Assembly (NCBI GenBank): GCA_013203185.1 | Contig: JABMOS010000074.1 | Span: 1-47,435 of the forward strand | Direction of reading: 5' to 3' | Length of the DNA: 47,435 nt | Origin: Fidelibacterota bacterium | Lineage (GTDB): Bacteria; Fidelibacterota; UBA8477; JABMPR01 | Shown here: in pieces, positions 6,744 through 43,094 of the stretch | Layout of the letters: every line of letters starts with the position of its first letter | Numbering within the stretch: the first letter of the stretch is position 1 | Notes under the pieces: model-generated | What the model was told of the DNA's origin: nothing | The model's database searches: none | What the model saw: the letters and a program-made list of their open reading frames with translations, nothing else | Position numbers and translations under genes: made by a program

Positions 6744-6825
6744 TTACCACTTTGCTAAGTGAAGGGGGAACAGACTCTAGTTGTCCATCCCCCCCACAGT
6801 TTATAACTCTATATCAACAACAATC

Positions 6826-9357: not shown

Positions 9358-9392
9358 TGTGTAACCTCCTTGTGTTGTTGTATCTTCATATA

Positions 9393-12761: not shown

Positions 12762-12764
12762 AAT

Positions 12765-21427: not shown

Positions 21428-23518
21428 CTACTCAACCAATTTAGCAGTTCCAAAATTTGATGGGGATTGATAGGCATTGTCCCGCCGAGTAAACCACGAT
21501 ATTTTCCCATTTCTCGTATTACTGTCATTGTCATTTACATGAACATCAAGACCTAAATAATGATTTGCGATGGCTATCCCACCAAGACTATCCCAGGGAA
21601 TTGCAATCTCCACATCATATCCATCTGGGTGCCGCACCTGCTCAACAGTGGCACCTTCAAAGTGAGCCCCGATATCCGCATACACCTCTCCACCATCTAG
21701 AACAAAACGCAGTTGGAATTCATCCTCACCATAGAATTTTGATTTGCTATTATCAGCATCCAGGTAAATCTCGATTCCGTCATTCAAATGGTCCACAGAA
21801 GAGGTAGCACTGAGACTATCATCATGTATCTCAATATAAAAATACAAGTTTTCCCAATCCCATAATGTGCTAAACCATGCTGTGAGATCCACCTCCCCTT
21901 CGACGGATCCAGAAATCCGATGATTCAGAGCTAGTTGGTCTGAAGACTCCCAGACATCGTCATAAGCACCATCAATTTCAGGAGGTTTCGCACTAAATTT
22001 TATTTGATACCCCTCAAAATCCTCCCATTGGATTTGACTTGTTTGAGATTGAGCTCGCCCAACTGTATTCCACACCTTTGCATGGAAGTTCCCGGTCCTT
22101 AGATCAAAAGGCAAATCATGGAGATACAATTCAAAACCCGTAGCATTTGGGAGAATTTTCCCATTTCTATACCATTGATACTGCAAGGGATACCCTGAAG
22201 CTTTCACCCTTATTATACCTGGATACCCAGTCATAAATATTTTATCTGCGGGTGATTGGAGGATGGTTGGTTTTCTCAGCTTAAGTGTCCTGGCATAAGT
22301 CTGGGGATCTAAGGGGTGCAAGGATTCAACCATTCCAGGCAGAAAGTCACACGCCTTCGAATTGGTCATCCTGGCCTGTTTGAATAGCCATCTTTTTGCC
22401 TGCCATTTACGGGGTCTGGGACCTTGACCATTCCAGTAGGCCAGAATCTTTTTAAACCCTTCTGTTTTCCTGATACTCCAGGGTTGCCGGTTCAGCTCAA
22501 ATTTTTTGTGGGTCCACCAATTCCAGCCCACATTGGCTTCTTCAAGAAATTGGGTGGACTTTTTATACAACTCCCAGGGTGGATCCTGCTCTCCGGTCTC
22601 ACCATGCCAGAGGGGGATATCATATTTGATGCGTAACTTATCCCAGCGTTGTAGACCTCGCGCAGAGTTGGTTGGTGGGTAAGAATGGAAGGCCATAACC
22701 AAGTGTGGATCCCAATCCATGGGCTCCAGGGCAGAAAAATCCTGTGCCCAATCATCGCCTTCGATAAAGATGATACCATCACTATCAGTTGCACGAATGA
22801 CTTGTGTGAGGCGAACATATAGTTCCCTGAGCAGGCCAGGATCAACGCCATCATATCTTGCCAGAAGGGGCTCGTTCAGGAGATCATATCCCACGATACA
22901 GGATTTATCTGCATATCGCCTGGTAATAGTGTCCCAAAGATCAATAGTCTGAGGCCAATATGTGGACTTCTCTGTCCATAGGCGAGCTTCACCATCACTA
23001 TCTGAAATATTCTCGGCATTTTGTCCACCAGGAGCTCCATGAAGGTCCCAGATGACACCCATACCTGCATTTTCACACCATTCAACAAAATCATCAAGGT
23101 ATTGAAAGTTTTTTTCATTGTATAGGTATGGAGCCTGAAAGGGTTGGCCGTCACGTGGTTGAATCATTGAAGCCAGCAGAGGAACTCTCAGTGTGTTCAC
23201 CCCAAACGACTTCATTATTTCAACATCTTCCCGGGTAACAAAATTTGAATAGTATAAATCCCAGAATTTCTGGGCATTTTTTGTGCCGAGAAGGTCTTCA
23301 ATGGCTGCTTCAAATTGTCGCGGTCGGTCAAGCTTTCTGATACCCCACATATACCCCTCAGGAAGCAACCAGCCCCCCAGCCCAATGCCACGGAGCTGAA
23401 CGATCTCCCCAGTCTCGATGTCAATAATATTCTGACCATCTGTGGTATAATATGCGTGGAGGCTTGATCCCAATATGAGCAATATGCATATTGTCAGAAA
23501 CCATTTAATCATGTTCAT
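21428..23518 (-). CDS. GH5 glycoside hydrolase with Ig-like and CBM9-like domains
   Basis: The 696-residue protein has a signal peptide (to about 22) and no lipobox. A GH5 TIM barrel spans about 25-390 ('LRGIGLGGWLLPEGYMWG', 'GVNTLRVPLLASM', 'GVIWDLHGAPGGQN'). Predicted acid/base E216 is in 'YDLLNEPLL' and nucleophile E307 in 'LWHGETGEQ'. An Ig-like domain follows at about 420-500 ('YQWYRNGKILPNA'), then a CBM9-like domain at about 505-695 ('PEIDGAYDDVWE', 'NDGIEIYLDADN'). GH5 includes endo- and exo-beta-glucanases. The 'LRGIGLGGWLLPE' start recalls exo-1,3-glucanase-like subfamilies, but the subfamily cannot be fixed by eye. No T9SS tail is present. AGGGG lies 6 bases before the ATG. Confidence 0.87.
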   Translation of the reverse strand: MNMIKWFLTICILLILGSSLHAYYTTDGQNIIDIETGEIVQLRGIGLGGWLLPEGYMWGIRKLDRPRQFEAAIEDLLGTKNAQKFWDLYYSNFVTREDVEIMKSFGVNTLRVPLLASMIQPRDGQPFQAPYLYNEKNFQYLDDFVEWCENAGMGVIWDLHGAPGGQNAENISDSDGEARLWTEKSTYWPQTIDLWDTITRRYADKSCIVGYDLLNEPLLARYDGVDPGLLRELYVRLTQVIRATDSDGIIFIEGDDWAQDFSALEPMDWDPHLVMAFHSYPPTNSARGLQRWDKLRIKYDIPLWHGETGEQDPPWELYKKSTQFLEEANVGWNWWTHKKFELNRQPWSIRKTEGFKKILAYWNGQGPRPRKWQAKRWLFKQARMTNSKACDFLPGMVESLHPLDPQTYARTLKLRKPTILQSPADKIFMTGYPGIIRVKASGYPLQYQWYRNGKILPNATGFELYLHDLPFDLRTGNFHAKVWNTVGRAQSQTSQIQWEDFEGYQIKFSAKPPEIDGAYDDVWESSDQLALNHRISGSVEGEVDLTAWFSTLWDWENLYFYIEIHDDSLSATSSVDHLNDGIEIYLDADNSKSKFYGEDEFQLRFVLDGGEVYADIGAHFEGATVEQVRHPDGYDVEIAIPWDSLGGIAIANHYLGLDVHVNDNDSNTRNGKISWFTRRDNAYQSPSNFGTAKLVE

Positions 23519-27636: not shown

Positions 27637-28983
27637 ATGCATTCCGAGTATTACAAACTGGTTCGTCCCTTAGCTACAGGACTCGCCTTCAGTCTAATTT
27701 TAATGATTGGACTAGGTATTACTCAATGTACTAGTGGTCATGTTGCTTCGGTCAAAGTCGTCTCAGACAGCACAGGTCATAAGCTCACTGTGGATGGCGC
27801 TGATTACTTTGTTAAAGGAATGAATTGGGACTATTACCCCATTGGAACAAATTACAGCTTTATTTTGTGGGAACAACCTGATGCATTTATTCTCAAGGTT
27901 TTGGACCAGGAGATGTCCTCAATGCAAGCCATGGGTGTAAATGCCATTCGCCAATATGTAGGGGTTCCCCCCCGTTGGGTCAAGCACATCTATGAGACCT
28001 ATGGCATTTTTACCATCCTGAATCATCCCTTCGCACGCTATGGCATGGAGATCGACGGCAAATGGGTTGCCAATGTGGATTATGGCGATGAAACGACACG
28101 AGAGCATGTTCTGGCAAATGTCATATCAATGGTAGAACAATTCCGCTATGTGCCCGGTGTACTCATGTGGCTATTGGGGAATGAAAATAACTATGGTTTA
28201 ATCTGGGAGTCAGCAGCAACCATGGACATGCCTGAAGCACAGGCAAAAGATTACCAGAAGGCTCGAGACCTTTATTCACTTTTTAACGAAGCCATCCGGA
28301 TCATCCATATTCGCGATAATCACCGACCGGTTGCCATTGCCAATGGAGATGCTCAATTCATAGATCTCATCGCCCAGGAAATTGAAAATTTAGATATTTT
28401 TGGAACCAACAGTTACCGCGGGGCCTCGTTTGAGAATCTCTTTGAAGTCGTCCGCGAAAAACTAGGTGTCCCTCTGCTTTTTACTGAATTTGGTGCTGAT
28501 GCCTACCATGCCACAGAAATGCGCGAAGACCAGTCCTCACAAGCCAGGTATCTTCTGGACAATTGGGGGGAAATTTACAAAAATGCTAAAGGTCATGGAG
28601 TTAGTGGCAATTCTATAGGTGGATGTACCTTCCAATTCAGTGATGGATGGTGGAAGTCTGGACCTGATGACAATTTGGATATTCATGATCCTCATGCTTC
28701 ATGGGCCAATGGTGGTTACCTGGAAGATTTTGTCCATGGTGAGAATAATATGAATGAGGAATGGTTTGGAGTCTGTGGCAAGGAAGCCTCGGAGACAGAG
28801 TATAGGTACAACCTCTTGCCTCGTAAAGCTTATTATGTTCTACAGCAAGTGCATGAATTGAATCCTCTCTCAGCTGAAATTACGCTGGAAAATATTGAAA
28901 CTTATTTTGCACAAATAAGACACAGCCTCATTGACACCATGTCAGCAGTAAGTGAGGATACCCCTGGAATGAGTGCTCCATGA
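27637..28983 (+). CDS. Clan GH-A glycoside hydrolase lipoprotein (GH2-type TIM barrel alone)
   Basis: The 448-residue protein has a lipoprotein signal (Cys at 31 in 'LGITQC'). A single TIM-barrel domain is similar to the catalytic domain of GH2 enzymes: 'YFVKGMNWDYYPIG', 'MGVNAIRQYVGVPPRW'. Predicted acid/base E183 is in 'WLLGNENNYG' and nucleophile E284 in 'LLFTEFGADAY'. The two beta-sandwich domains that normally precede the barrel in GH2 are missing, so it may belong to another clan A family. In this operon a beta-1,3-glucan activity is likely but unproven. GAGGAG lies 5 bases before the ATG. The stop overlaps the ROK start by four bases (ATGA). Confidence 0.78.
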   Translation: MHSEYYKLVRPLATGLAFSLILMIGLGITQCTSGHVASVKVVSDSTGHKLTVDGADYFVKGMNWDYYPIGTNYSFILWEQPDAFILKVLDQEMSSMQAMGVNAIRQYVGVPPRWVKHIYETYGIFTILNHPFARYGMEIDGKWVANVDYGDETTREHVLANVISMVEQFRYVPGVLMWLLGNENNYGLIWESAATMDMPEAQAKDYQKARDLYSLFNEAIRIIHIRDNHRPVAIANGDAQFIDLIAQEIENLDIFGTNSYRGASFENLFEVVREKLGVPLLFTEFGADAYHATEMREDQSSQARYLLDNWGEIYKNAKGHGVSGNSIGGCTFQFSDGWWKSGPDDNLDIHDPHASWANGGYLEDFVHGENNMNEEWFGVCGKEASETEYRYNLLPRKAYYVLQQVHELNPLSAEITLENIETYFAQIRHSLIDTMSAVSEDTPGMSAP

Positions 28984-30278
28984 CGTTAGATGTGAAGAAT
29001 CAAGCGCCTACATCCGGTGTAGGATATGTTCAGCCTAATTTTTTTGGCTATCGCAAAGTTGACCGCTGGGAGGCCAGACCTCTTGCAGATTCTGTCCTCC
29101 ATCTCATCTGGCGCGAACACCAAATTTCCCGAGCCGAAATTGCCAGGCAAATTGGACTTTCAAGATCTACAGTCACTGAAGTAATCAGAGATCTCCTCCT
29201 TACAGGCTATGTCAAAGAAGTTGGCGCAGGCATTTCAAGTGGCGGCCGCAAACCTATCGTACTTGAATTTCAAAATGACCATAAGGTGATCCTGGGAGTG
29301 GATATTGGAGCTACCCACGTCTCCGCTTCCCTGATGAATCTGGGTGGTGAACTTCTAGCATTCGAAAAACGCAGCCATTCAGTGCGATCCGACCCTGAGG
29401 GTACCCGTAGTCTGGTCTTCCAACTATGTGATACCTGTCTCAACACGATTGAAGATGGTAATCAGCGGCTCTTGAGCATAGGGATTGCGCTCCCCAGCCC
29501 TGTGGACCCTGATCACCCCGAATGGATTTCTGAAGTCGTCATACCAGCCTGGCAGGGGAAAAATGAGCTGGATATTCTCCACAGTCATTATGGCGTCCCT
29601 GTCTATGTGGACAATGATGCCAACCTAGGCGCGCTGGCAGAAAATCGATGGGGTGCTGGTCGTGGATATGAAGATTTGACTTATGTCAAGATCGGTTATG
29701 GCATAGGTGCTGGATTTGTTCTCAATGGTGAAGTCTATCGTGGTTCTACTGGAATCGCAGGTGAAATGGGACACATGCCAGTGGGCGGAGGAGAAACCCT
29801 GTGTGAATGTGGTCTTACTGATTGTCTGACTACCCATGTCGGTGGAAAAGCCATGTTCGCCAGAATATCTGAACTGGCAGAAAAATATCCTCATAGCCTC
29901 TTAGCCAGAGGAACCTCAAATCTTGAGGAAATTGAACTGGCAGCTCATGCCAATGATGAGTTAGCCCTTCAACTCTACCAGGAAATGGCCGACTACTTAA
30001 GTACTGCTATCTCAGGCTGGATCAATATGATGAATCCCGGTCGCATTATTCTTGGTGGCGCCATGAAGCAGCTGCAAAATCGCTTATTGGCACCCGTGCA
30101 GGAGAAAATTAAGGCTTGTTCAATTGTGGGTTCTGTACCCAATACGGACATTCAAACCAGCGAGCTTGGACATAAGGCAGAAAGCATTGGGGCAGCAACG
30201 TTAGCCCTGGAAGGTGTCTTTGCCGAGCCTGGCTTCTATCGAAATAAGGGTGAAACCCTCCACGTGTCAAGTGCATAG
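28980..30278 (+). CDS. ROK-family transcriptional regulator
   Basis: The 432-residue protein has a winged helix at about 35-95 ('ISRAEIARQIGLSRSTVTEVIRDL', 'SSGGRKP'). A ROK sugar-binding/kinase-like domain follows: phosphate loop DIGATH at 108-113, D213 in 'VDNDANLGALAE', and zinc site H265, C275, C277 and C282 ('GHMPVGGGETLCECGLTDC'). This is the NagC/Mlc/XylR plan. The kinase-type Asp and zinc ligands are retained, so the domain should bind a sugar such as glucose or a glucoside. It is translationally coupled to the GH gene before it and sits 92 bases before the GPH transporter. It probably represses its own operon through the palindrome at 27570-27598 until an inducer sugar binds. The inducer is unknown. 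Confidence 0.92.
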   Translation: MTLDVKNQAPTSGVGYVQPNFFGYRKVDRWEARPLADSVLHLIWREHQISRAEIARQIGLSRSTVTEVIRDLLLTGYVKEVGAGISSGGRKPIVLEFQNDHKVILGVDIGATHVSASLMNLGGELLAFEKRSHSVRSDPEGTRSLVFQLCDTCLNTIEDGNQRLLSIGIALPSPVDPDHPEWISEVVIPAWQGKNELDILHSHYGVPVYVDNDANLGALAENRWGAGRGYEDLTYVKIGYGIGAGFVLNGEVYRGSTGIAGEMGHMPVGGGETLCECGLTDCLTTHVGGKAMFARISELAEKYPHSLLARGTSNLEEIELAAHANDELALQLYQEMADYLSTAISGWINMMNPGRIILGGAMKQLQNRLLAPVQEKIKACSIVGSVPNTDIQTSELGHKAESIGAATLALEGVFAEPGFYRNKGETLHVSSA

Positions 30279-30370: not shown

Positions 30371-32317
30371 ATGAGTGCAAAAACACACTACAAAACAGCA
30401 CCAGAAGATCGAATTTCGTTAAAACAGAAATCGGCCTATGCGGTTGGCATGTTGGTTAACAATCTACAGGCGGCTGCGCTGCCTGCCATGGTGGTTATCC
30501 TCAACCTGGGACTCGGTATGGATGTATTGTGGGTAGGCCTCATAGGCGCCATCCCCCGTATTTTTGATGCTGTCTCCGATCCTTTGCTGGGTTACATCTC
30601 AGATAATACCAGAACTCGCTGGGGCAGACGGCGTCCCTTCATCTTTGCCGGTGCGATACTGGCTGGAATTATTTTCGCCCTCATGTGGCAATTACCCTCT
30701 GGCTACATCGACATCCTGGATAAGACGCCCATCAAGCAGCACCAAACCATTGCAGATAGTGAAACAGATGCTGTCTATAATACAGCAGGCGGCGTGGTGC
30801 TCGATTATTCAGAAGAAGTCCTGCCAGATGCCAATTTTACATTTTATGGTCCTGAAGCACTTGCCACTGATGCAGGCGCATCTTTTGCAACAAATCTTGA
30901 TGGATTCCCCCAGGTAGAGATCAATGTAGACATTCCTGAGTACCAATCATTCCAGGTTGTCTTCAATGAAGCCGCAGGTGAATCATATACCATCGACCTT
31001 AATGAGAAAATGTCTACGGATGGAAAGGGAAATCTCTATAAGTTCCAGTTGGCAGATCTGGTCCGGAGTACCACCATGGGAGATCAGGCTGGCAATGAGA
31101 CCCTGGATATCCAATCTCTGGATAATATTTCGATACAATTAGTAGGATTGGTGGGGGCTGGAACGGCCACCATTCACTCTGTCAAACTGAGAAAGAGTGA
31201 AGAATTCTTTGTCACCTATTTCTGGTATTTCATGGCCATGTCCATTCTCTTCTTCCTGGCCTATACTGTTTTCGCCACACCTTTTGTTGCTTTCGGTTAT
31301 GAAATGACACCGGATTATCATGAGCGTACCCGGCTGCATGCCTTTGCCAACACAGTTGGTCAGTTGGCCTGGTTAGGTGTCCCCTGGTTCTACGCCATCA
31401 TGTCCAGCGCTCTCTTCAGAGACACTGTACACGGTGCCCGCACCCTGGCCATTGCAGTGGGAATCATCGTCGCTGTATTTGGAATCATTCCTGCCATCTT
31501 TTTGAAAGAGAGACAAACTCTTGAACCGGCAAAGAATGCAGGCAAGAGTCTCAGTGAAAACATGCGTGAATTTTTCAAAGGGATTGTGACAACTTTCAAG
31601 TGCACTCCTTTTGTAAAATTATGTGGGGCAACTTTTCTGGTGTTCAATGGTTTTCAACTGGGTATGTCCTTCTCCATCTATGTCATGATCTACTATCTCT
31701 TCGGTGGAAATGATGGTGATGCTGGAAAACTCATGGGCTGGTTTGGTATGCTTACATCAATTGCTACCCTGGGTGTCATTCCTTTGACTGGCTGGATCGC
31801 AACTAAAATTGGCAAGCGTAAAACCTTTCTCATTACCATCTCACTATCCATACTGGGATATGCCATCAAATGGGTGGGATACAATCCTGACTATCCTTAC
31901 TGGCTCCTCTATGCAGCACCATTCGTAGCCTTTGGAACAGGTTCATTATTTACCCTCATGGGATCAATGATTTCTGATGTGTGCGACTATGATGAGCTGG
32001 AGACCCATCAACGTCGAGAAGGCGTTTTCGGAGCTATCTACTGGTGGATGGTCAAAGTTGGAATGGCGCTGGCAGGCCTCCTGACTGGCGTATTGCTTAA
32101 AGTTTCCGGTTTTGATGTGGCCCTTGGGGCAGCTCAAGCAGAAAGCACGCTCTTCTTGATCAGAGTATTCGATGTGGGTATTCCCCTGCTTACCTCGGTG
32201 GTCGCATTGTGGATAATTTCTACTTACAAACTCACTGAAGTAAAAGCCTATGATATCCGAACCCAACTCGAAGCCAGACGAGGTAAAGTAGCGGCAGCAG
32301 ATTCTGCAGAAAATTAA
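30371..32317 (+). CDS. GPH-family (MFS) sugar/cation symporter with large inserted periplasmic domain
   Basis: The 648-residue protein has GPH signatures: 'IPRIFDAVSDPLLGYISDNTRTRWGRRRPFI' split across helices 2-3, 'FVAFGYEMTPDYHERTRL' after helix 4, and 'SMISDVCDYDELETHQRREG' in the C-terminal half. Ordinary GPH carriers are about 450-500 residues. Here about 165 extra residues (roughly 112-275) sit between helix 3 and helix 4, on the periplasmic side. The insert is soluble and beta-rich ('FDGFPQVEIN'-like strands, 'YTIDLNEKM', 'ISIQLVGLVGAGTATIHSVKL'), like a jelly-roll carbohydrate-binding domain. The carrier likely imports glucan oligosaccharides for the phosphorylase encoded two genes later. 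AAGGAG lies 9 bases before the ATG. Confidence 0.9.
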   Translation: MSAKTHYKTAPEDRISLKQKSAYAVGMLVNNLQAAALPAMVVILNLGLGMDVLWVGLIGAIPRIFDAVSDPLLGYISDNTRTRWGRRRPFIFAGAILAGIIFALMWQLPSGYIDILDKTPIKQHQTIADSETDAVYNTAGGVVLDYSEEVLPDANFTFYGPEALATDAGASFATNLDGFPQVEINVDIPEYQSFQVVFNEAAGESYTIDLNEKMSTDGKGNLYKFQLADLVRSTTMGDQAGNETLDIQSLDNISIQLVGLVGAGTATIHSVKLRKSEEFFVTYFWYFMAMSILFFLAYTVFATPFVAFGYEMTPDYHERTRLHAFANTVGQLAWLGVPWFYAIMSSALFRDTVHGARTLAIAVGIIVAVFGIIPAIFLKERQTLEPAKNAGKSLSENMREFFKGIVTTFKCTPFVKLCGATFLVFNGFQLGMSFSIYVMIYYLFGGNDGDAGKLMGWFGMLTSIATLGVIPLTGWIATKIGKRKTFLITISLSILGYAIKWVGYNPDYPYWLLYAAPFVAFGTGSLFTLMGSMISDVCDYDELETHQRREGVFGAIYWWMVKVGMALAGLLTGVLLKVSGFDVALGAAQAESTLFLIRVFDVGIPLLTSVVALWIISTYKLTEVKAYDIRTQLEARRGKVAAADSAEN

Positions 32318-32337: not shown

Positions 32338-34038
32338 ATGGATAGAAATTTTATGAGAAACGCTATAAGCCTCATTTTAATGACCCTCCTGGTTGTTGCA
32401 TGTGGACCCAAATCAGAGCTCACTCCTGAAACACAAACCAAGATGCTCACATCTACTTCTGAGATCCTGCTTACTTCTGCCAGCGGTAGCAAACTGGCAG
32501 TCCAGGAGAATGTTAAATTCAACATTGGCCAGGCTAAAGGTGTCGTCCTGCAAGTTTTTCCTGACAGTGTGAAACAGACTATTGATGGAATTGGAACCTC
32601 TTTCACTGAATCTTCCGCATTCGTCCTGGCCCACCTGGAACCACAAGATCGTATGGAAGTCATGCAAAAAATCTATGGTGAGGAAGGCGCTAATTTCTCG
32701 CTAACTCGAACCCATATCGGGGCCTGCGATTTTTCTGTGGAAGGCAAGTACTCCTACGCAGAGAAGGCTGGTGATACAGAGCTTGAATCGTTCAGTATTC
32801 AAGCAGATTCAGAGGGCTTTGCTGCGGCAGACTATCCCGGTATCAAGGACACTACCTACGACCTCTTACCCATGATTCAGGAAGCCCTCAAGATCAAGCA
32901 ATCACAAGAGGATTCTGAGCTTCGGATTATTGCATCAGCCTGGACAGCCCCAGCCTGGATGAAAGAGAATGAGATGTATTATGAACCTGGAACGCCTGAA
33001 AATAATTGGCAAGGCACAGGAGGTTCCTTAAAGCCAGAGTACGTCAGTACTTATGCAGATTATCTCGTCCGTTATTTTGATGCCTATAAGGCAGCAGGTG
33101 TCAACATCTGGGGTCTAACGCCAGTCAATGAACCCCATGGGAACAATGGCCAGTGGGAAAGCATGAACTTCAGCCCTGAAACTCAGAGTGAATTTGTTCA
33201 GACACATCTCGGACCCGGTTTACGTAAGGCTGGATACGGAGATGCCAGGCTACTCATCTTTGATCAGAACCGGGATGGCATTGAGGAATGGTCAGAAGTT
33301 CTTTACCCTGCAGATGTGGATGAAAAATATATATATGGCATGGCTGTACACTGGTATGAAAGCACCTTCAAAGTTTATGAAGACATCTTCGATCGTGTCC
33401 ATGATAAGTATCCTCAGTATAGCATTGTTCATACTGAAGGTTGCATTGATGATCTGGGGAAGCCAGCTCCAGCTGATTGTACTGATCCAGAAGGGCGCAC
33501 AGAGAAGAACTGGTTTAAAAATGATTCGTTCTGGTGGACTCAATCTGCATCAGATTGGGGCTATGCTGTTCCCTGGACTCCAGGGAATGGTGTAGATCAC
33601 CCCCTCTATACACCCGTTCATCGGTATGCTCGAAACATCATCGTAAGTCTTGATCACTGGGTCACTGGGTGGGTAGACTGGAATATCGTTTTGGACCAGC
33701 AGGGAGGTCCCAACCATGCTGGAAACTTCTGTGGTGCACCAATTATGATAGACACAGAATCATTGGATGTCTATTACACCCCGATCTATTCAGTCCTGGC
33801 TCAATTCAGCAGAACCATCAGACCTGGGGATAAAGCCCTACAGACCCATGCATCCAAAGCGGGTCTAAACTCTGATGACATCCACTTTTGTGCCACCATC
33901 AACGAAGCTGGTTTAATGAGTGTCCAGGTACTGAATACCTCAGCAGCTCCTATACAATACAAGTTACAGATAGCAGGTGAGTTCGCCAACCTGAGCATTG
34001 CTGAGAACTCTGTTCAAACCGTCAGGGTACAACTTTAA
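32338..34038 (+). CDS. GH30 glycoside hydrolase lipoprotein (likely beta-1,6-glucanase or beta-glucosidase)
   Basis: The 566-residue protein has a lipoprotein signal ('LLVVAC', Cys near 22). A GH30 barrel plus C-terminal beta-sandwich follows: 'IDGIGTSFTESSAFVL', 'SLTRTHIGACDFS', 'ASAWTAPAWMKEN'. Predicted acid/base E265 is in 'LTPVNEPHG' and nucleophile E367 in 'IVHTEGCID'. The C-terminal barrel part has 'VDWNIVLDQQGGPNHAGNFC'. Length and motifs match GH30 subgroups 1/3, which include glucosylceramidase-like enzymes and endo-beta-1,6-glucanases. Laminarin carries beta-1,6 branches, so debranching is the most plausible job. The start could be the ATG at 32338 or the one five codons later at 32353; the AGGA before 32338 is 13 bases away, so the choice is uncertain. 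Confidence 0.9.
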   Translation: MDRNFMRNAISLILMTLLVVACGPKSELTPETQTKMLTSTSEILLTSASGSKLAVQENVKFNIGQAKGVVLQVFPDSVKQTIDGIGTSFTESSAFVLAHLEPQDRMEVMQKIYGEEGANFSLTRTHIGACDFSVEGKYSYAEKAGDTELESFSIQADSEGFAAADYPGIKDTTYDLLPMIQEALKIKQSQEDSELRIIASAWTAPAWMKENEMYYEPGTPENNWQGTGGSLKPEYVSTYADYLVRYFDAYKAAGVNIWGLTPVNEPHGNNGQWESMNFSPETQSEFVQTHLGPGLRKAGYGDARLLIFDQNRDGIEEWSEVLYPADVDEKYIYGMAVHWYESTFKVYEDIFDRVHDKYPQYSIVHTEGCIDDLGKPAPADCTDPEGRTEKNWFKNDSFWWTQSASDWGYAVPWTPGNGVDHPLYTPVHRYARNIIVSLDHWVTGWVDWNIVLDQQGGPNHAGNFCGAPIMIDTESLDVYYTPIYSVLAQFSRTIRPGDKALQTHASKAGLNSDDIHFCATINEAGLMSVQVLNTSAAPIQYKLQIAGEFANLSIAENSVQTVRVQL

Positions 34039-34098: not shown

Positions 34099-37000
34099 GT
34101 GAATTCATCTCCTAAACCCAACTACCGATTAGATAAGAATGGCGAGTTTGTCATCAGCAATTATAACGCTGCCAAACCATTTTCCAGTTTCTTCCCAGGA
34201 ATAGCCGGAAAAATGGGCATCCCCATGTGGGTATTCTATGTGAATCGTGGACAGGGAATCTGTAGCATGGGCATCCAGGATAAGGAGAATCCCATCATGG
34301 AATTCCTCCCTGCAAACTGGGCGTATCAATTGGCACCTACTCAGGGGTTTAGAACCTTCTTAAAATTTCCTGAGAGTTCTGGAATCACTTTCTATGAACC
34401 ATTCCAGGATCACATTCAGGACAAAAATATCGAACGTACCCAGAGCATGAGGATTTCCCCCTCCCATTTAGTATTGGAAGAGGAAAACAAGACCCTGGGC
34501 CTGCGTTTTACGGTTGAGTATCATTCTATTCCAGATGAAAACTACGCTGGAATCATCCGTAACTTGCATATCACAAACCTGAACAACACGGATGTAACTT
34601 TTGAAGGGCTTGATGGTCTGCCGCTCATCATTCCCTTTGGTATTGGTAATTTTGGTCTCAAGAATATTCGACGCCTTATGGAAGCTTTTGTAGAGGTAAA
34701 GAATTACGATAAAAAGGCACCTCTGTTTAAGGCCAAGGTCAAACCAAGTGACACGCCAGATGTGGAAGTGCTTGAACGCGGCAATTTCTATGCTGCCTTT
34801 CAAAACAGTGCACTAGGAATGAAACAACTCACTCCCATTGTGGATCCTGAGAGAATATTTGGAGCCCACAATGACTACAGCTACCCAGATTTTTTCATCA
34901 GTACTCCTTTTGACAAGCTTCTGGATCATCAGGCATTTGAGAATCGCTATCCCTCAGCCATGGGTATGTTTTCCACCAAACTAGGCGCTGGAGAAACCTA
35001 TACTGTGAGTTCTGTCATTGGTCATGCTGAATCTCAGGACGCACTGAATGCACTCCTCCCCGCCATTATGACCACGGATTACTTCAGCAGCAAGGCTCAG
35101 GACAGCATGAATATCATAGATGAGTTGACCCAAAAGAATCTGGTTGTGAGTCGGGAACCAGTATTTGACATGTATGTCCGTCAGAATTTTCTGGACAATG
35201 TGTTGCGCGGAGGTTTTCCATACACTTTTGAAGGTGAGAACTCAAAATCGGTTCTCCATCTCTATTCTAGAAAACATGGGGATCTAGAGCGTGATTATAA
35301 TGATTACCGAATCACCCCCTCCCATTACTCCCAGGGCAATGGCAATTTCAGGGACATCAATCAAAATCGCCGCTCAGATCTACTGTTTAACCCTGATGTA
35401 GGATCTGGCAATCTAGAGCATTTTGTCAACTTGATTCAATTAGATGGCTTTAATCCATTGGTCTTGAAAGAAGTGAGATATCGTGTTGGGGATGATAGTG
35501 CAGCATTAAAAGTTCTTAATGCCCATTTTAAATCAGAAATATCAAAACAGGTTTTGACCTTCCTGAAGAATCCAATTAGTCCAGGAGAATTGCTGGAATT
35601 CCTCAGGCAGAAAGATGTCGTTTTCCAGGGGAATGCCGATGTGTTCCTTGGTGACTTATTAGCAGGTTGCATTAAGGTCAATGACACAGATTTTGCCGAG
35701 GGGTATTGGTCAGACCACTGGACCTACAATTTGGACCTCCTTGAAAATTACCTGAGCATCTATCCTGAGAAACTGGGACACATTCTTTTTGGCTACGAGG
35801 CATTCACATTTCACGATAGCGCCCATCGCGTCCTCCCCCGCTCAGATAAGTATGTCATCTGGGATGGCAAGACCATGCAGCTGGATTCAGTGAGTCACGA
35901 TGAAGAAAAAGCGGCGCTTATCGCTTCAAGAAGCGAAGATCAACATCTCATGCGGGATGAATTTGGGCAGGGTCGAATCGTTCGAGCTTCACTCCTCATC
36001 AAATTCCTGAGCATTATTACCAACAAAATCGCATCACTTGATCCATCAGGAATTGGTGTTGAGATGGAGACAGACAAACCCAACTGGTATGATGCCCTCA
36101 ATGGATTGCCAGGTGTGTTAGGATCTAGTCTTAGCGAAACCATAGAAATTAAACGCACTGCTGAATTCATTCTTGAAGCATTTGAGCAAACCTCTCCAAA
36201 TGAGGATATTCTTGTATTTGAAGAACTCCATGATTTCGCCAGCATGGTTTTCGCAGCCTTATCAAATGGAGATAGCGATTATGAGTATTGGGATTCAGCA
36301 ACCTCTGCCAAAGAGGAATATCGTTCAAAAACTCGTCTGGGAATCAGCGGCAAAACAATCCCAGTAGACTCAGATTGGATAAAGGAATTTCTCCAGGCTT
36401 GTGTTGCCAAGGTTGATAAGAGTATCAATAAGGCGATAAGCGATGACACTGGCATCCCTGGAACTTATTTCTACCATAAGGTTGTGGATTACCAAATCAT
36501 CGATAGCATTGATGATCCAGGCACAAAACATCCCAAACTCAATGGCCGAGGATTCCCCTGCTATCAGGCCAACTCTTTTAAGCTGGTAAGATTGCCTCTT
36601 TTTCTTGAGGGACCCGTGCATTATCTCCGCACCTTGCCAAAGCAAGAGATGGCTCAACAGGTAGCCACCAATATCAAATCCAGTGGTCTCTATGATAAGA
36701 AGCTGGAAATGTATAAGGTGAACGCCGAGCTCAGTGATCAACCCATGGAAATTGGACGTGCCCGGGTGTTCTCACCAGGATGGTTTGAGAATGAATCGAT
36801 CTGGCTACACATGGAATACAAATATATGTTGGAGCTACTCCGCAATGGCTTGTATGACACCTTTTTTCAGGATTTTAAAAAGGTTTTCATCCCCTTCCTT
36901 GATCCTGAAGTGTATGGCCGCAGTATATTGGAAAATTCTTCATTTCTCGTTAGTAGCGCCAATCCAAATCCAGATTTACATGGGACTGGCTTTGTGGCTC

Positions 37001-37416
37001 GTCTCAGTGGTGCCACTGCTGAGTTTATCCATATTCTTATGCAAATGGCAATTGGATCCAGGGCTTTTTCAGTCGGAGAGAATGGTGAATTGAATTTTTC
37101 ACTGGATCCTGTTCTTCCCGCATGGCTATTTACAGAAATAGAACAGAAAACCAATATTCTGGTGGATGGTGTCATGACAGAAATCAGCACCCCATCAAAT
37201 TGCTTCACATTCATGTTCCTCAGTGACGTTCTAGTCACCTACTATAATCCAACTCAAAAAGACACCTTCGGAGAAAATGCTGTGAAGCCCCAGAGCTGGG
37301 TACTCACAGACGGAGCAGGTCAATCGCAGACCTTTAGTGGGACAACCCTGGGACAGGATTTTGCCCAGAGCATCAGATCCAAGCAAATCCGCCGCATAGA
37401 AATCACCCTGGGCTAA
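34099..37416 (+). CDS. Beta-1,3-oligoglucan phosphorylase-like enzyme (GH149/GH161, GH94-related)
   Basis: The 1105-residue cytosolic protein has no signal peptide and starts at GTG (AGAGG 8 bases upstream). It resembles the large inverting phosphorylases related to GH94: an N-terminal beta-sandwich ('WVFYVNRGQGICSMGIQDKENPI' region, 'EFLPANWAYQL'), then an alpha/alpha barrel with 'SQGNGNFRDINQNRRSDL', 'GYWSDHWTYNLDLLENYLSIYPE' and a late 'GTGFVARLSGATAEF'. GH94 cellobiose phosphorylases are about 800 residues. About 1100 residues is the size of GH149 and GH161, both beta-1,3-oligoglucan phosphorylases. I cannot separate these two families by eye. The reaction would be beta-1,3-glucan oligosaccharide plus phosphate to glucose-1-phosphate plus a shortened chain, conserving bond energy after import by the adjacent carrier. 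Confidence 0.82.
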   Translation: MNSSPKPNYRLDKNGEFVISNYNAAKPFSSFFPGIAGKMGIPMWVFYVNRGQGICSMGIQDKENPIMEFLPANWAYQLAPTQGFRTFLKFPESSGITFYEPFQDHIQDKNIERTQSMRISPSHLVLEEENKTLGLRFTVEYHSIPDENYAGIIRNLHITNLNNTDVTFEGLDGLPLIIPFGIGNFGLKNIRRLMEAFVEVKNYDKKAPLFKAKVKPSDTPDVEVLERGNFYAAFQNSALGMKQLTPIVDPERIFGAHNDYSYPDFFISTPFDKLLDHQAFENRYPSAMGMFSTKLGAGETYTVSSVIGHAESQDALNALLPAIMTTDYFSSKAQDSMNIIDELTQKNLVVSREPVFDMYVRQNFLDNVLRGGFPYTFEGENSKSVLHLYSRKHGDLERDYNDYRITPSHYSQGNGNFRDINQNRRSDLLFNPDVGSGNLEHFVNLIQLDGFNPLVLKEVRYRVGDDSAALKVLNAHFKSEISKQVLTFLKNPISPGELLEFLRQKDVVFQGNADVFLGDLLAGCIKVNDTDFAEGYWSDHWTYNLDLLENYLSIYPEKLGHILFGYEAFTFHDSAHRVLPRSDKYVIWDGKTMQLDSVSHDEEKAALIASRSEDQHLMRDEFGQGRIVRASLLIKFLSIITNKIASLDPSGIGVEMETDKPNWYDALNGLPGVLGSSLSETIEIKRTAEFILEAFEQTSPNEDILVFEELHDFASMVFAALSNGDSDYEYWDSATSAKEEYRSKTRLGISGKTIPVDSDWIKEFLQACVAKVDKSINKAISDDTGIPGTYFYHKVVDYQIIDSIDDPGTKHPKLNGRGFPCYQANSFKLVRLPLFLEGPVHYLRTLPKQEMAQQVATNIKSSGLYDKKLEMYKVNAELSDQPMEIGRARVFSPGWFENESIWLHMEYKYMLELLRNGLYDTFFQDFKKVFIPFLDPEVYGRSILENSSFLVSSANPNPDLHGTGFVARLSGATAEFIHILMQMAIGSRAFSVGENGELNFSLDPVLPAWLFTEIEQKTNILVDGVMTEISTPSNCFTFMFLSDVLVTYYNPTQKDTFGENAVKPQSWVLTDGAGQSQTFSGTTLGQDFAQSIRSKQIRRIEITLG

Positions 37417-37469
37417 TGGGACGGAATCAACATACTTACTCAGACAAAAAGAAACGTGAGGGGAAACCG

Positions 37470-38594
37470 ATGAAATCCACGCATCTAGTAGTGGCCAGCA
37501 TCATTTTAATGAGCAGCTTATTGTCCAATTGTCAAACTCAAGTTCCAGCTACATCTCCTGTAGAGAAGGTTCCAGTTCCTGGCGAGTTGGAGCTCATCCA
37601 GATCATTGGATCAGATACAACCCTATTCTCCAAACGAGGAGACCCTGAGAATAGAGCCTTCAAACCCTACCTGGATGAGAAATGGATCGGAAATGCCATC
37701 TCCTATGGTTGCTACCGTGAAGGCCAGGCGCCCAACACCAAGGGTCCCACCGAAGAAGAGATCCTGGAAGATTTGAACATTCTATCAGAAAACTGGAACC
37801 TCATACGCGTTTATGGATCAGACGATGACTCTCAGCGTGTTTTGAAGGTTATTCACGACAACCAACTCCCCTTTCGTGTCATGCTGGGCGTCTGGCTGGA
37901 AAATGAGACCAATCGACCTGAGCGGAAACAGCTTAATCTAGAGCAAATCGCCAGAGGAATTACTTTAGCCAATCGATATCCAGACGAAGTGATAGCTGTG
38001 AATGTTGGCAATGAATCTCAGGTGGATTGGTCATGGCATCGTATGGCTATGCAGGACTTGATCCGCTACATTCGAGCAGTGCGTCACTACACAACATTAC
38101 CTGTCACAACAGCAGATGACTATAACTTCTGGAATAAACCAGAAAGTAAACTTGTCGCTGCTGAAATAGATTTCATATGTCTACATGCATACCCCTTGTG
38201 GAATGGAAAAACGCTGGAGGAAGCAATCTCCTGGATTGATACCGTTTACAAATCAGCGCTTGAATTTCATCCTGATATGTTGATTGCACTATCAGAAACT
38301 GGATGGGCGACCCGCTATGACCCAAGTAGACAGGGTCCAGGTGAAGAGGGTGCACTGATTAAGGCTGAAGTAAGTGTAGAGGCTCAGGAGATCTTCCTGA
38401 CAGCGTTCAACGCCTGGATCAATGACAATCAGGTAACCTCCTTTCTATTCGAGGCTTTTGATGAGCCCTGGAAAGGTGGTGGCGCACAATCAGGACCTGA
38501 TGTCATGGAGAAACATTGGGGTGTATTTTATGAAGATCGCACACCCAAGGAATCATTAACCAATTATTTAAATAAACAAACTCAGAAAGATTAG
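37470..38594 (+). CDS. GH17 beta-1,3-glucanase-like lipoprotein
   Basis: I place the start at the ATG at 37470 (374 residues), with GAGGGG 6 bases upstream and a lipoprotein signal beginning MKSTHLVVASIILMSSLLSNC. An in-frame ATG at 37416 overlaps the phosphorylase stop but adds only a charged leader. The GH17 barrel shows 'LSENWNLIRVYGSDDDS', acid/base E182 in 'AVNVGNESQVDW', 'FICLHAYPLW' and nucleophile E276 in 'ALSETGWAT', the usual GH17 ETGW motif. GH17 members are endo-beta-1,3-glucanases or beta-1,3-glucanosyltransferases. This is the clearest enzymatic pointer to beta-1,3-glucan as the substrate. The lipobox has Asn at -1, which is uncommon. Confidence 0.9.
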   Translation: MKSTHLVVASIILMSSLLSNCQTQVPATSPVEKVPVPGELELIQIIGSDTTLFSKRGDPENRAFKPYLDEKWIGNAISYGCYREGQAPNTKGPTEEEILEDLNILSENWNLIRVYGSDDDSQRVLKVIHDNQLPFRVMLGVWLENETNRPERKQLNLEQIARGITLANRYPDEVIAVNVGNESQVDWSWHRMAMQDLIRYIRAVRHYTTLPVTTADDYNFWNKPESKLVAAEIDFICLHAYPLWNGKTLEEAISWIDTVYKSALEFHPDMLIALSETGWATRYDPSRQGPGEEGALIKAEVSVEAQEIFLTAFNAWINDNQVTSFLFEAFDEPWKGGGAQSGPDVMEKHWGVFYEDRTPKESLTNYLNKQTQKD

Positions 38595-38690
38595 TGACAA
38601 GACCAATATGAATAAACTCATATGGGGAGAGGAGTCAAACGGTCACCATTTTTTCCGAATAACTCGAAAAGAAAAAGAACAGGAGCAACA

Positions 38691-41600
38691 ATGAGAACAA
38701 AATTAAGCATACTTCTGGTCTTGCTTGCCTTTAGTGGCATAGCATTGGCCCAAAATGCACCGATCACATTTGAATCCGGTGAATTTGGTGCCGATTGGAC
38801 CTGGTCAGCTTTTGAAAATGACTCTAATCCAGCGGTGGAAATTATCGCGAACCCTGATACGTCAGGGGCAAATACATCAGCCACCGTTGCCTCTTTCACC
38901 GCCTTGACGACAGGCCAGCCCTGGGCAGGTTTTGAGTCACTCCATGGTGCTGACATTGGTCCATTTTCATTTAGCGCCAGCAACGCCACCGTCAAAATCA
39001 TGGTCTGGAAATCTGTGATCAGTGATGTCGGTATCAAGTTTGCTGAAGCAAGTGGCGAAGCCCAGCTTGAGACCAAAGTCGCAAATACGCTCATCAATGA
39101 ATGGGAAGAATTGACCTTTGACCTCTCTGGAAGCATTGGAGCGGGCATCACAGGCATTGTGGATCAGATCATCATCTTTCCTGATTTTGATTTGGCTGGA
39201 CGAACCACTGACAACACGGTTTATATTGATAATGTGACATTCTCCGAACAGGTTATTAATGATGCAGCACCTGTTGTTGCAGCACCTGTTCCAATGGTCG
39301 CCGCAGAAGATGTCATGTCTATCTACAGTGGTGCCTATGTTGACTTAGCAGAAACAAACTTCAACCCCAACTGGGGTCAGAGTACTGCTGTCACAGTCGG
39401 TGCTGATGTAGCTGGCGATGCAACATTGCTGTATGAGACACTGAACTATCAGGGTACCAATCTTGGTGGCGCTGATGGTGTAGATCAGGATTTCTCTGGC
39501 TATGATTTCATTCATATTGATTTCTGGACATCAAACGCCAGTGCATTGAACTTTTTCCTCATTAGCCGGACGACTGGTGAACAGCCTTTCGCCTTGCCAA
39601 TAACCGCAGAGGAATGGGTAAGTGTTGATATACCTCTGGCACACTTTACCGATCTCGGACTGGGTCTTACAGATATCTTCCAGTTCAAGGTTGATGGCGG
39701 TGATGGCGCTACCAAAGTCTGGTTTGATAACTGGTACTTCTATATGGCTGAACCTCTTCCAGAGGCACCCGTCGTAGCGGCACCCGTTCCCACGCTGCCT
39801 GCTGAAGATGTCATGTCCGTTTATAGCGGCGCATATACCGATCTGGCTGAGACCAACTTCAACCCCGACTGGGGTCAGAGTACTGTGGTCACAATCGATG
39901 CTGATGTAGCTGGCGATGCCACGCTGCTGTATGAAACACTGAACTACCAGGGCACAAATCTAGGTGGCGCTGATGGTGTGGATCAGGATTTCTCTGAGTA
40001 TGCCTTCCTCCACGTGGATTTCTGGACCTCCAATGCTTCAGCCCTCACCTTATTCCTTATTAGTCGGACTACTGGTGAACAGCCTTTCGCTCTGCCTATT
40101 GTTGCAGGTGAATGGGTGAGTATTGATATTCCACTAGATCATTATGCTGATCTTGGACTGGGTCTCACTGACATCTTCCAGTTCAAAGTTGATGGTGGTG
40201 ATGGTGCTACCAATGTCTGGTTTGATAACTGGTACTTCCATGGTGAGGTGATTATTGTACCGGATCCAGGTCTATTCTTCTCTGAATATGCCGAGGGTAC
40301 CAGTAGCAATAAGTATGTAGAAATTTACAATCCAACTGATGCTGATGTCGATCTCTCCACCTACTCCGTCCAGGGTACAAATAACGGTACTCTCTGGGGA
40401 GATGCTGGAGAAAGAGATCTTGCTCTTTCTGGAATTCTGCCTGCTGGCCATGTGTATGTGATTGCTGCTGATGAAGCCAGCCCTGCTATACTAGAGCTTG
40501 CTGACCTTGCACTGCCTTATGAGAGCCCTGTCCACCATAATGGTGATGATGGTATTGCTCTGCTAAATAACGGCCTCATTATTGATGCTATCGGTGTCGA
40601 TGGCGTTGATCCTGGAGATGGCTGGGCTGTAGCAGGTGTTCTTGATGCAACCAAGGACCATACACTCGTTCGTAAGAATGAAGTCATGTATGGCAATATT
40701 GGAAACTGGGAAATGTCTGCCGGTACGGATTCATTGAACTCACAATGGCACGTTGAAAATCCACCAACAGCTGATTACCTACCACCTACCTTAGGCTGGC
40801 ATATGATGCCTCCTCCTCCACCTGCACCACTGGTGGCGGCACCTGCTGCTATGCACGACGCAGCTGAGGTGATGTCAATTTACAGCGCGGCATATGACAA
40901 TCTGGCTGAGACCAACTTTAACCCTGACTGGGGTCAAAGTACTGCCGTGACGTTAAACGCTGACGTAGCTGGTGATACGACTCACTTGCTCTATGGGATG
41001 CTGAACTATCAGGGTACCAACCTCGGTGGTCCAGAAGGTGTAGATCAAGATGTTTCTGGATATCAGTTCCTCCATATTGATTTCTGGTCATCAAATGCAC
41101 CAGCTCTCAATTTCTACCTTATTAGTCGTGGAACAGGTGAGCAGGGTTTTGCTCTGCCTATCGTGCCCGGTGAATGGGTAAGTCTTGATATCCCCCTGAA
41201 CTATTTCACAAATCTGGGACTGGGTCTAACTGACATCTTCCAGTTCAAGGTTGATGGTGGTGATGGCGCTACCAACGTCTGGTTTGACAACTGGTATTTC
41301 CATACCCCAGCTCCACCCCCACCTCCACCAATCGAGCTGGCAGGTACCTGGGTCATGGCTCCAATGGCTGGCGCTGTGGCTGTAGGACCCAACCCCTTCG
41401 ATGGCAGTTGGTGGGCCAACTCAGAAGAGGACGTGTTAACACGTGCCTGTTTCTTTGATGACAAATATGTCTTCAATGCCGATGGCTCCTTCAGCAATGT
41501 GTTGGATGGAGACACCTGGTTAGAAACCTGGCAGGGTGTTGCCGGTGATGGTTGTGGTGCTCCTGTAGCCCCACATGATGGCATGACGCCAGCAACCTGG

Positions 41601-43094
41601 AGTATTGATCCAGTCGCTCGTACAGTCACCCTGGATGGTGTTGGTTCTTATCTTGGTATCCCCAAGGCCTTCAATGGCGGCGAGCTCACCAATCCTGCTG
41701 ATGCCCCAGCCTCCATTACCTATGAAGTTCATGTCAATGATTCCAGCGGTACAATCGCTCTGGTTCTTGACATTGGTGGTGGGTTCTGGACCTTCACAAT
41801 GGTTCCTGCACCCTTACCTCCAATTGAACTGGCAGGTACCTGGGTCATGGCTCCAATGGCTGGCGCTGTGGCTGTAGGACCCAACCCCTTCGATGGCAGT
41901 TGGTGGGCCAACTCAGAAGAGGACGTGTTAACACGTGCCTGTTTCTTTGATGACAAGTATGTCTTCAATGCCGATGGTTCCTTCAGCAATATGCTGGACG
42001 GAGACACCTGGTTAGAAACCTGGCAGGGTGTTGAGGCTGATGGCTGTGGCGCTCCTGTAGCTCCACATGATGGCATGACCCCAGCAACCTGGAGTATTGA
42101 TCCTGAGATGCGTACTGTCACACTGAATGGTGTTGGTTCTTATCTCGGTATCCCTAAAGCCTTCAATGGCGGCGAGCTCACCAATCCTGCTGATGCTCCA
42201 GCCTCCATTACCTATGAAGTTCATATTGATGGCGGAGCCCCAGGAATTTCACTGGTGCTAGACATTGGTGGTGGCTTCTGGACCTTTAAGATGGTACCAG
42301 CCATGCTACCTCCACCACATCCAATGGTGGCTGCTCCCACTCCTGAAATAGAAGCCCTTGAGGTATTCTCTATCTTTAGTGATGCCTATGCAGACCTGGC
42401 TGAAACCAACTTCAATCCCGATTGGGGTCAGTCGACTCAGGTTATGTTCGAAGACATCGAAGGCAACAATACCATGAAGTATGGCAATTTGAACTACCAG
42501 GGTACCAACCTCGGTAGCGCAGATGGCCTCGATCAAGATGTCTCAGGATATGATTTCATCCATGTTGACCTTTGGAGTCACAATGCCAGTACGCTCAACT
42601 TCTTCCTCATCAGCCGGACCACAGGTGAGCAGACTTTCAGTCTGCCTATCGTGCCAGGCGAATGGGCAAGTGTTGATATACCACTCTCCTACTTCACCGA
42701 TCTTGGATTGGGTCTCACAGACATCTTCCAGTTCAAAGTTGATGGTGGTGATGGTGAAACAGCGGTCTGGTTTGACAACTGGTTCTTCCATGGTCTAAAT
42801 GGTACGGGTATTGACGGCAACATGCTCCCTGAAGAGTTTGCATTGAGCCAGAATTATCCAAACCCCTTCAACCCATCCACAACTATCAATTACAGTATTG
42901 CGCAGTCTGGGCATGTAACGCTCAAGCTTTACAACATTACTGGACAGGAAGTTGTGACTCTGATTGATGGTGAAGTAGCTCCAGGTTACTACACCACCAA
43001 TTTTGATGCAAGTCACCTGGCAACCGGTACATATTTTTATGCACTGACAGCTGGTAAAAACCGAAGCGTCAAGAAGATGGTACTGATTAAGTAG
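38691..43094 (+). CDS. Giant repeat-built surface glycan-binding protein with T9SS sorting domain
   Basis: The start is the ATG at 38691 (AGGAG 6 bases upstream, signal MRTKLSILLVLLAFSGIALA); an upstream in-frame ATG is rejected. The product is 1467 residues. In order: a jelly-roll CBM-like domain (about 22-190); four copies of a ~160-residue module A ('LAETNFNPDWGQST', 'LNYQGTNLG', 'DIFQFKVDGGDGAT', 'VWFDNWYF'); an LTD domain between copies 2 and 3 ('FFSEYAEGTSSNKYVEIYN'); two copies of a 164-residue module B between A3 and A4 ('AGTWVMAPMAGAVAVGPNPF', 'TRACFFDDKYVFNADGSF'); and a T9SS tail (NYPNPFNPSTTINY, ending KMVLIK). No catalytic motif is visible. I infer a surface protein that binds the polysaccharide multivalently. 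It ends the operon and is followed by a terminator. Confidence 0.85.
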   Translation: MRTKLSILLVLLAFSGIALAQNAPITFESGEFGADWTWSAFENDSNPAVEIIANPDTSGANTSATVASFTALTTGQPWAGFESLHGADIGPFSFSASNATVKIMVWKSVISDVGIKFAEASGEAQLETKVANTLINEWEELTFDLSGSIGAGITGIVDQIIIFPDFDLAGRTTDNTVYIDNVTFSEQVINDAAPVVAAPVPMVAAEDVMSIYSGAYVDLAETNFNPNWGQSTAVTVGADVAGDATLLYETLNYQGTNLGGADGVDQDFSGYDFIHIDFWTSNASALNFFLISRTTGEQPFALPITAEEWVSVDIPLAHFTDLGLGLTDIFQFKVDGGDGATKVWFDNWYFYMAEPLPEAPVVAAPVPTLPAEDVMSVYSGAYTDLAETNFNPDWGQSTVVTIDADVAGDATLLYETLNYQGTNLGGADGVDQDFSEYAFLHVDFWTSNASALTLFLISRTTGEQPFALPIVAGEWVSIDIPLDHYADLGLGLTDIFQFKVDGGDGATNVWFDNWYFHGEVIIVPDPGLFFSEYAEGTSSNKYVEIYNPTDADVDLSTYSVQGTNNGTLWGDAGERDLALSGILPAGHVYVIAADEASPAILELADLALPYESPVHHNGDDGIALLNNGLIIDAIGVDGVDPGDGWAVAGVLDATKDHTLVRKNEVMYGNIGNWEMSAGTDSLNSQWHVENPPTADYLPPTLGWHMMPPPPPAPLVAAPAAMHDAAEVMSIYSAAYDNLAETNFNPDWGQSTAVTLNADVAGDTTHLLYGMLNYQGTNLGGPEGVDQDVSGYQFLHIDFWSSNAPALNFYLISRGTGEQGFALPIVPGEWVSLDIPLNYFTNLGLGLTDIFQFKVDGGDGATNVWFDNWYFHTPAPPPPPPIELAGTWVMAPMAGAVAVGPNPFDGSWWANSEEDVLTRACFFDDKYVFNADGSFSNVLDGDTWLETWQGVAGDGCGAPVAPHDGMTPATWSIDPVARTVTLDGVGSYLGIPKAFNGGELTNPADAPASITYEVHVNDSSGTIALVLDIGGGFWTFTMVPAPLPPIELAGTWVMAPMAGAVAVGPNPFDGSWWANSEEDVLTRACFFDDKYVFNADGSFSNMLDGDTWLETWQGVEADGCGAPVAPHDGMTPATWSIDPEMRTVTLNGVGSYLGIPKAFNGGELTNPADAPASITYEVHIDGGAPGISLVLDIGGGFWTFKMVPAMLPPPHPMVAAPTPEIEALEVFSIFSDAYADLAETNFNPDWGQSTQVMFEDIEGNNTMKYGNLNYQGTNLGSADGLDQDVSGYDFIHVDLWSHNASTLNFFLISRTTGEQTFSLPIVPGEWASVDIPLSYFTDLGLGLTDIFQFKVDGGDGETAVWFDNWFFHGLNGTGIDGNMLPEEFALSQNYPNPFNPSTTINYSIAQSGHVTLKLYNITGQEVVTLIDGEVAPGYYTTNFDASHLATGTYFYALTAGKNRSVKKMVLIK
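39263..42795 (+). repeat. Four copies of a ~160-residue module A within the surface protein gene
   Basis: Copies lie at about 39263-39750, 39763-40240, 40822-41310 and 42310-42795. All share LAETNFNP[ND]WGQST, LNYQGTNLG and DIFQFKVDGGDG followed by VWFDNW[YF]F. Copies 1 and 2 are adjacent, an LTD domain separates 2 from 3, and the tandem module B pair separates 3 from 4. Confidence 0.9.
41331..42314 (+). repeat. Tandem 492-bp duplication (module B) within the surface protein gene
   Basis: Units at about 41331-41822 and 41823-42314 are offset by exactly 492 bases (164 codons). From 41339 and 41831 onward they are identical over more than 100 bases, including many synonymous positions, so the duplication is recent or kept uniform by gene conversion. 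Confidence 0.92.

Follow-up and report, generated by a model that had tools for sequence, protein, structure and literature searches.

What a soluble domain is doing inside a sugar carrier, and where it came from, are the questions raised by one gene of a Fidelibacterota bacterium, on contig JABMOS010000074.1, of which the whole 47,435-nucleotide stretch (hereafter the window) was analyzed. The gene and its parts are located as follows:

30371–32317, plus strand: GPH/MFS_2 carrier with a domain inserted in the TM3–TM4 loop, 648 aa, ATG start
30566–30580, plus strand: D66 and D70, at the MelB cation-site positions by alignment offset to MelB chain 4m64
30629–30685, plus strand: TM3 (residues 87–105, full-length model), preceding the insert
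30707–31204, plus strand: insert, a linker and a beta-sandwich (residues 113 to about 278, as delimited against insertless relatives)
30794–31192, plus strand: beta-sandwich core of the insert (residues 142–274, from strands in the models and Foldseek)
31199–31303, plus strand: TM4 (residues 277–311, full-length model), following the insert

The families named by Pfam for this protein were carrier families only, namely MFS_2 (E 1.3e-62, in two stretches, the best being residues 279–623; 212.2 bits, above the gathering score of 27) and also MFS_1, and the scan left the mid-protein domain unnamed. The NCBIfam model TIGR00792 (gph) matched in two stretches at 174.6 bits, below its cut-off of 231.35, and the insert may be costing the carrier part of this score. 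In the full-length model (pLDDT 83.6, pTM 0.84, with residues 119–131 below 50), helices at residues 17–46, 52–79, and 87–105 are followed by strands from 112 to 274 and by the next helix from 277, and the first ten Foldseek matches were MFSD2A and MelB entries, MFSD2A being the nearest solved fold. The protein therefore shares with GPH carriers such as MelB the MFS_2 match, the MFS fold, and the positions of the cation-site Asp pair, and differs from them in the 166-residue domain between TM3 and TM4. The pair D66 and D70, which we take to be equivalent to Asp55 and Asp59 of the MelB cation site, was invariant across 38 alignment rows of carriers, a conservation compatible with cation coupling. 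Unlike MelB, the window carrier has an asparagine, Asn30, at what we presume, from the alignment offset, to be the position of MelB Asp19.

Alignment with insertless relatives bounded the insert at about 166 residues, between '..MWQLPSG' and '..TYFWYF'; for example, insertless carriers read '..MWQLPEGHSQMFYFWTF' where the window carrier reads '..MWQLPSGYID[...]KLRKSEEFFVTYFWYF'. In its membrane part the window carrier is 80–81% identical to the insertless carriers of loci L018, L020, L021, and L038, and 80%, 74%, and 61% identical to the insert-bearing carriers of L008, L010, and L013, respectively, so that these insertless carriers are no less similar to it than some insert-bearing ones. By these alignments, the insert is a module added to an otherwise ordinary carrier. 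An assembly artefact was ruled out as its source, the insert being present in many separate genomes. The TM2–TM3 connection contains the motif TRTRWGRR, with a net charge of +4 across residues 77–92. Because this R-rich stretch after TM2, which we take to be the cytoplasmic motif of MFS proteins, marks the cytoplasmic side, the TM3–TM4 loop and its insert would by homology face the periplasm, and a cytoplasmic location was ruled out on the same ground.

Modeled in isolation from 18 rows, the domain was predicted as a beta-sandwich (pLDDT 77.9, pTM 0.79), weak at residues 12–21 of the model, within the linker. Disorder was not seen, and extra membrane helices were ruled out, as the models show beta strands between TM3 and TM4. 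The earlier note on this DNA, which had described a folded, beta-rich insert of about 165 residues between helices 3 and 4, lying in the periplasm rather than the cytoplasm, was thus accurate in length, fold, and predicted side of the membrane.

Identifying the family of the domain was less straightforward. The top match of its model in a Foldseek search of the PDB was a chain of a complex I assembly intermediate, 7zkq_A (E 4.6e-5), which judging from the titles is a CIA30-type factor. Close to it were CBM11 (6r3m, E 6.5e-5, TM 0.55; 6r3m, 6r31, and 1v0a together, TM 0.53–0.55) and the GH50 agarase 6xj9 (E 1.5e-4), with 4bq2, other GH50 entries, CBM28, and CBM30 weaker; the segment aligned in the agarases is presumably their CBM-like part. 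On these moderate matches the fold class, a beta-sandwich, seems fairly secure and the family does not. With Pfam matches to the 18 carrier inserts accepted up to an E of 5, Agarase_CBM (PF17992) appeared in two (best E 0.1; 12.6–12.7 bits, below the gathering cut-off of 26.3) and CIA30 in two (best E 0.046), and chance-level matches appeared beside them, to DUF4494 (0.018) and, from the insert of the window carrier itself, to a further unrelated family (0.14); CIA30 was also a weak match in one of 12 enzyme-borne copies of the domain (see below). CBM_11 was unlisted for all 18 inserts at E up to 5, a range in which the HMMER filters drop most matches above 0.1, and an hhalign comparison with six CBM11-like Planctomycetota domains gave no significant relation (probability 1.9%, E 0.025), and on these two results membership of CBM11 by sequence was rejected. 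The likeness to CBM11, which binds beta-1,3-1,4-glucan, lies in the beta-sandwich and the Foldseek match, and the difference in the profile comparison. The CBM-like domain of GH50 beta-agarases is similar by Foldseek and by the sole PDB sequence matched with a profile of the domain (A3, described below), which was residues 176–218 of 6xj9, at a weak E of 0.055; it differs in being N-terminal in the agarases and in the sub-threshold Pfam score of the insert. A PF17992 search found it in 0 of 149 Planctomycetota genomes and in 0 of 14 control genomes as well, which makes the blank uninformative. The carbohydrate-binding, jelly-roll appearance that the earlier note had proposed is therefore upheld by the beta-sandwich, the CBM11 and GH50 fold matches, and homology to a GH50-like module, but the best fold match is an assembly factor and the sequence is not that of CBM11.

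Two profiles were used in locating the domain in other proteins: A1, made of carrier inserts only, with no enzyme sequence, and A3, consisting of A1 and five enzyme rows. In the window's phylum, A1 matched 15 of 199 sampled genomes, all of them of the window's genus, with one match each, in the carrier (in G045 it is cut by a contig end). Of 13 genomes of chosen loci, A1 matched eight at an E of 0.1 or less: in five the match lay in the carrier, and in G206, G207, and G208 (E 3.1e-34, 2.5e-29, and 6.6e-28) in another protein. In these three the protein is an enzyme with an N-terminal signal (by eye) and the domain at its C-terminus; at L090, the catalytic part of that enzyme matches agarase 4bq2 at 4e-35. 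A1 matched three of 246 genomes in the phylum of G206 (E 6.9e-25 and 1.1e-24 among the matches) and A3 matched 11 of 298 in its class, the two samples overlapping; the domain is on carriers in two of these 11 (G201, twice in one protein, and G202) and on GH50-like proteins in nine. The GH50-like copy of G732 lies in a shortened frame. By blastp of the pieces, the domain is on GH50-like proteins in all four of the genomes that A3 matched in the phylum of the Kiritimatiellota genome G205 (194 searched; GTDB may file this genome with Verrucomicrobiota), and on carriers in all six that it matched in the phylum of the Cloacimonadota genome G200 (117 searched).

Outside carriers, the domain was thus found in the sampled genomes in one place only, at the C-terminal end of exported GH50-like enzymes, most of them from Planctomycetota, and none of these genomes had it in both settings at the thresholds used. 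A search for GH50-like proteins in 19 genomes of the window's genus, run with no positive control, gave 0 matches. Judged from the profile matches, homology of the carrier insert to the C-terminal module of GH50-like enzymes (of Planctomycetota and of the phylum of G205) is well supported, and in the Planctomycetota copies it extends, linker at the front included, across almost the full profile. N-terminal signals were seen by eye on the proteins that carry the enzyme copies, so the fold is fit for export.

The earlier note had also suggested surveying GPH homologues for the same insert, and the survey found it repeatedly. Sixty-nine stretches matched a pattern in genome contigs, and the 44 that encoded a relative represented 39 distinct loci, in which the domain was located by an A3 search of open frames of at least 80 aa. 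It was in the carrier at 17 loci (at L017, only as a piece at a contig end), in a GH50-like gene at six, in both at none, and in neither at 16. Among these 16, L039 is a fragment that lacks the region, and the upstream sequence is shorter than 1 kb at L021 and L030; a GH50-like copy occurs at another place (L088) in the genome assembly to which L021 belongs. At all six GH50-like-borne loci (L022, L023, L024, L029, L031, and L032), the GH50-like frame is the divergent neighbor of a related, insertless carrier, with 42–154 bases between the open frames. That one domain occupies either of two neighboring genes of the locus is well supported. A phosphorylase homologue, of GH161/GH149 type, is found near five of these six (at L023, only 949 bases are covered beyond the enzyme). 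At L012 and L013, the Planctomycetota loci whose carriers bear the insert, the phosphorylase is present and the stretch examined has no GH50-like gene. The acid/base pattern was present in five of the six GH50-like enzymes and the nucleophile pattern in five of the six; the proteins are perhaps beta-1,3-glucanases rather than agarases. One GH50 enzyme is presented as a beta-1,3-endoglucanase in PMC11079163.

The copies in the two settings differ in their aromatic residues. The Trp of a WGCG motif is invariant in 12 enzyme-borne rows (alignment A5) and absent from all 15 carrier rows (A3), and the W/Y preceding GNQ, also a feature of the enzyme copies, occurs among carrier rows only in the two copies of L012. 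The aromatics conserved in enzyme-borne copies are missing from the Marinimicrobia carriers, and the window insert contains no Trp at all; on account of these absences, docking and an altered binding face both stand as real competitors of a capture or lid function. As a docking module, the domain would bind protein and not sugar, linking the importer with a glycosidase of the periplasm (the GH30, GH17, or GH2-like protein) or having once bound the GH50-like neighbor, and so channel products. We consider this doubtful. Although the best fold match is the assembly-intermediate chain, CIA30 recurs weakly in Pfam for both carrier and enzyme copies, and the only two genes found to carry the domain are ones that may lie side by side in a locus, the CBM11 and GH50 chains fit the fold about equally well, and the examined stretches of the insert-bearing loci L008, L012, and L013 contain no GH30 homologue, so that such a partner is not common to all.

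The insert is under purifying selection. In the six of nine compared pairs in which neither part was saturated, Ka/Ks was 0.07–0.10 for the insert and 0.01–0.04 for the carrier part, rough figures given that several Ks values exceed 1. The three- to sevenfold or so higher ratio of the insert, the varying loop lengths, and the insertless relatives, about 80% identical, that manage without it could all be explained if the domain were a stabilizing or near-neutral passenger of a chance fusion, folded and with no role in transport. Such an explanation is quite unlikely, as the insert ratio is still very low, the domain has been kept in Marinimicrobia, Cloacimonadota, and some Planctomycetota, and it is found as two tandem copies in L012 and on a second carrier lineage in L013. 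Because many close insertless carriers exist, the domain is not needed for transport.

The history of the insert was approached through two trees. In the midpoint-rooted carrier tree, built from membrane parts only, 18 insert-bearing carriers form one group (97/95) that sits among insertless Planctomycetota and Kiritimatiellota carriers, with the L013 copy elsewhere, on a long branch; a single insert-bearing clade was rejected (p-AU 0.0004, with a similar result from fewer rows). In the domain tree, the 18 sampled carrier-borne copies are on one side of a branch (99/98). Because the carrier tree splits off L013 while the domain tree unites the copies, the trees favor a single capture of the enzyme module, with the cassette later spreading once more into the same site, and the module probably moved from enzyme to carrier; for L013, long-branch error and an old presence with losses are possible alternatives. 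The L012 carrier, from Phycisphaerae (L012:7971–10682, an open frame of 904 aa), holds the domain twice, in tandem within the same loop; the copies are non-sister in the domain tree, leaving a recent tandem duplication unsupported. L013:7989–11536, of Planctomycetota, is itself a tandem pair, consisting of the insert-bearing carrier and then an insertless paralogue placed elsewhere in the carrier tree. A MAG labeled Xanthomonadales (L015, L039) has a Marinimicrobia-like insert carrier, either by binning error or by transfer.

The likely cargo of the carrier is suggested by the genes that surround it in the window:

15981–17828, plus strand: GH3 protein
21428–23518, minus strand: GH5 protein with a CBM9-like domain
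27637–28983, plus strand: GH2-C-like TIM-barrel protein, N-terminal hydrophobic signal by eye
28980–30278, plus strand: ROK/NagC-like regulator (Pfam/NCBIfam)
32338–34038, plus strand: GH30 protein, lipobox-like VVAC by eye; the nearest NCBIfam model is endo-1,6-beta-glucanase (193.9 bits, cut-off 700)
34099–37416, plus strand: GH161-like beta-1,3-glucan phosphorylase (P0004; PDB 9qqk)
37416–38594, plus strand: GH17-like protein, N-terminal hydrophobic signal by eye

The phosphorylase matches the GH161 phosphorylase 9qqk at E 3.1e-218 over residues 12–1013 and shows no signal peptide by eye; a GH149 identity was rejected (123.7 bits against an NCBIfam cut-off of 1150, with the structure matches being to GH161). 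PMC6484121 describes a GH161 enzyme acting on beta-1,3-gluco-oligosaccharides, and published GH149 clusters contain a pfam13347 carrier, according to PMC5827456. The gene context (GH30, GH161, GH17, GH3, and ROK) points to beta-1,3/1,6-glucan oligosaccharides as the predicted substrate. As a cytoplasmic phosphorylase needs intact oligosaccharides, the carrier would be what supplies them.

Elsewhere in the window, the 1490-aa protein at 38622–43094 has a T9SS sorting tail, a lamin-tail domain, four repeated units that are CBM-like by eye, and a pair of nearly identical repeats, each about 160 residues long; Pfam names none of the repeats. On the minus strand, 4035–15601 contains genes for a TonB-dependent receptor, a CBM9 protein with a T9SS tail, an SSF symporter, a sigma-54 regulator, and a kinase, together with a gene for a sugar-type SBP, for which the Pfam-scanned ORFs (19 of the 23 of at least 150 aa) include no ABC permease.

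ROK repressors sense cytoplasmic sugars. A ROK regulator gene adjoins or lies near the carrier gene in the window, L003, L004, L007, L011, L016, and L035, an arrangement that would suit a sensor, in which sugar binding on the carrier signals to the regulator. This is very improbable, given that the carrier has no signaling domain by Pfam and that no ROK homologue is found in the examined stretches of L005, L006, L014, and L019.

The reading that we prefer, and to which we give about an even chance of being correct, is a cation-coupled GPH importer of beta-glucan (laminarin-type) oligosaccharides with an enzyme-derived, CBM-like periplasmic module, the substrate and the cation coupling being what we infer for it. 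An accessory module of a GH50-like enzyme would have moved from the enzyme into the TM3–TM4 loop of the carrier. Exported GH30 and GH17 enzymes would release oligosaccharides in the periplasm, the inserted module would hold them at the periplasmic mouth of the carrier or form a lid over it, and the carrier would pass them on, intact, to the cytoplasmic GH161 phosphorylase. In GH50 agarases the tunnel that takes the substrate is roofed by the CBM-like domain, which also supplies part of the sugar subsites (PMC8551122); by analogy, capture or lid formation is the favored function of the inserted domain. More tentatively, and with the balance somewhat against it, a secreted glucanase encoded next to this secondary sugar carrier could have lent it an accessory module, the roof of the enzyme's own substrate tunnel. 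Moved into the periplasmic loop, that roof would now cover the transporter mouth as an integral substrate-binding domain or lid, making the protein a single-gene equivalent of importers that depend on a binding protein.

A CBM lying inside another fold is described in PMC9063844 for a GH5 endoglucanase, which is an enzyme, whereas the window protein is a membrane carrier. Among the matches listed in the open-licence literature, none described a GPH or MFS carrier into which a CBM or other soluble domain is inserted, and none reported such loci, or the same in Marinimicrobia.

Sugars usually reach secondary carriers directly from solution, and high-affinity sugar capture is the work of ABC or TRAP binding proteins or of SusD-like lipoproteins. 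A carrier to which a CBM-like domain is attached would blur the line between secondary carriers and binding-protein capture, and the insertless, one-copy, and two-copy relatives of similar sequence would provide a natural system for the effect of local capture on uptake. The finding also presents one domain on either of two neighboring genes of a glucan locus, and ties the poorly known marine phyla Marinimicrobia and Cloacimonadota to probable beta-glucan use. In its predicted role, the domain may help a marine bacterium to catch or gate algal sugars.
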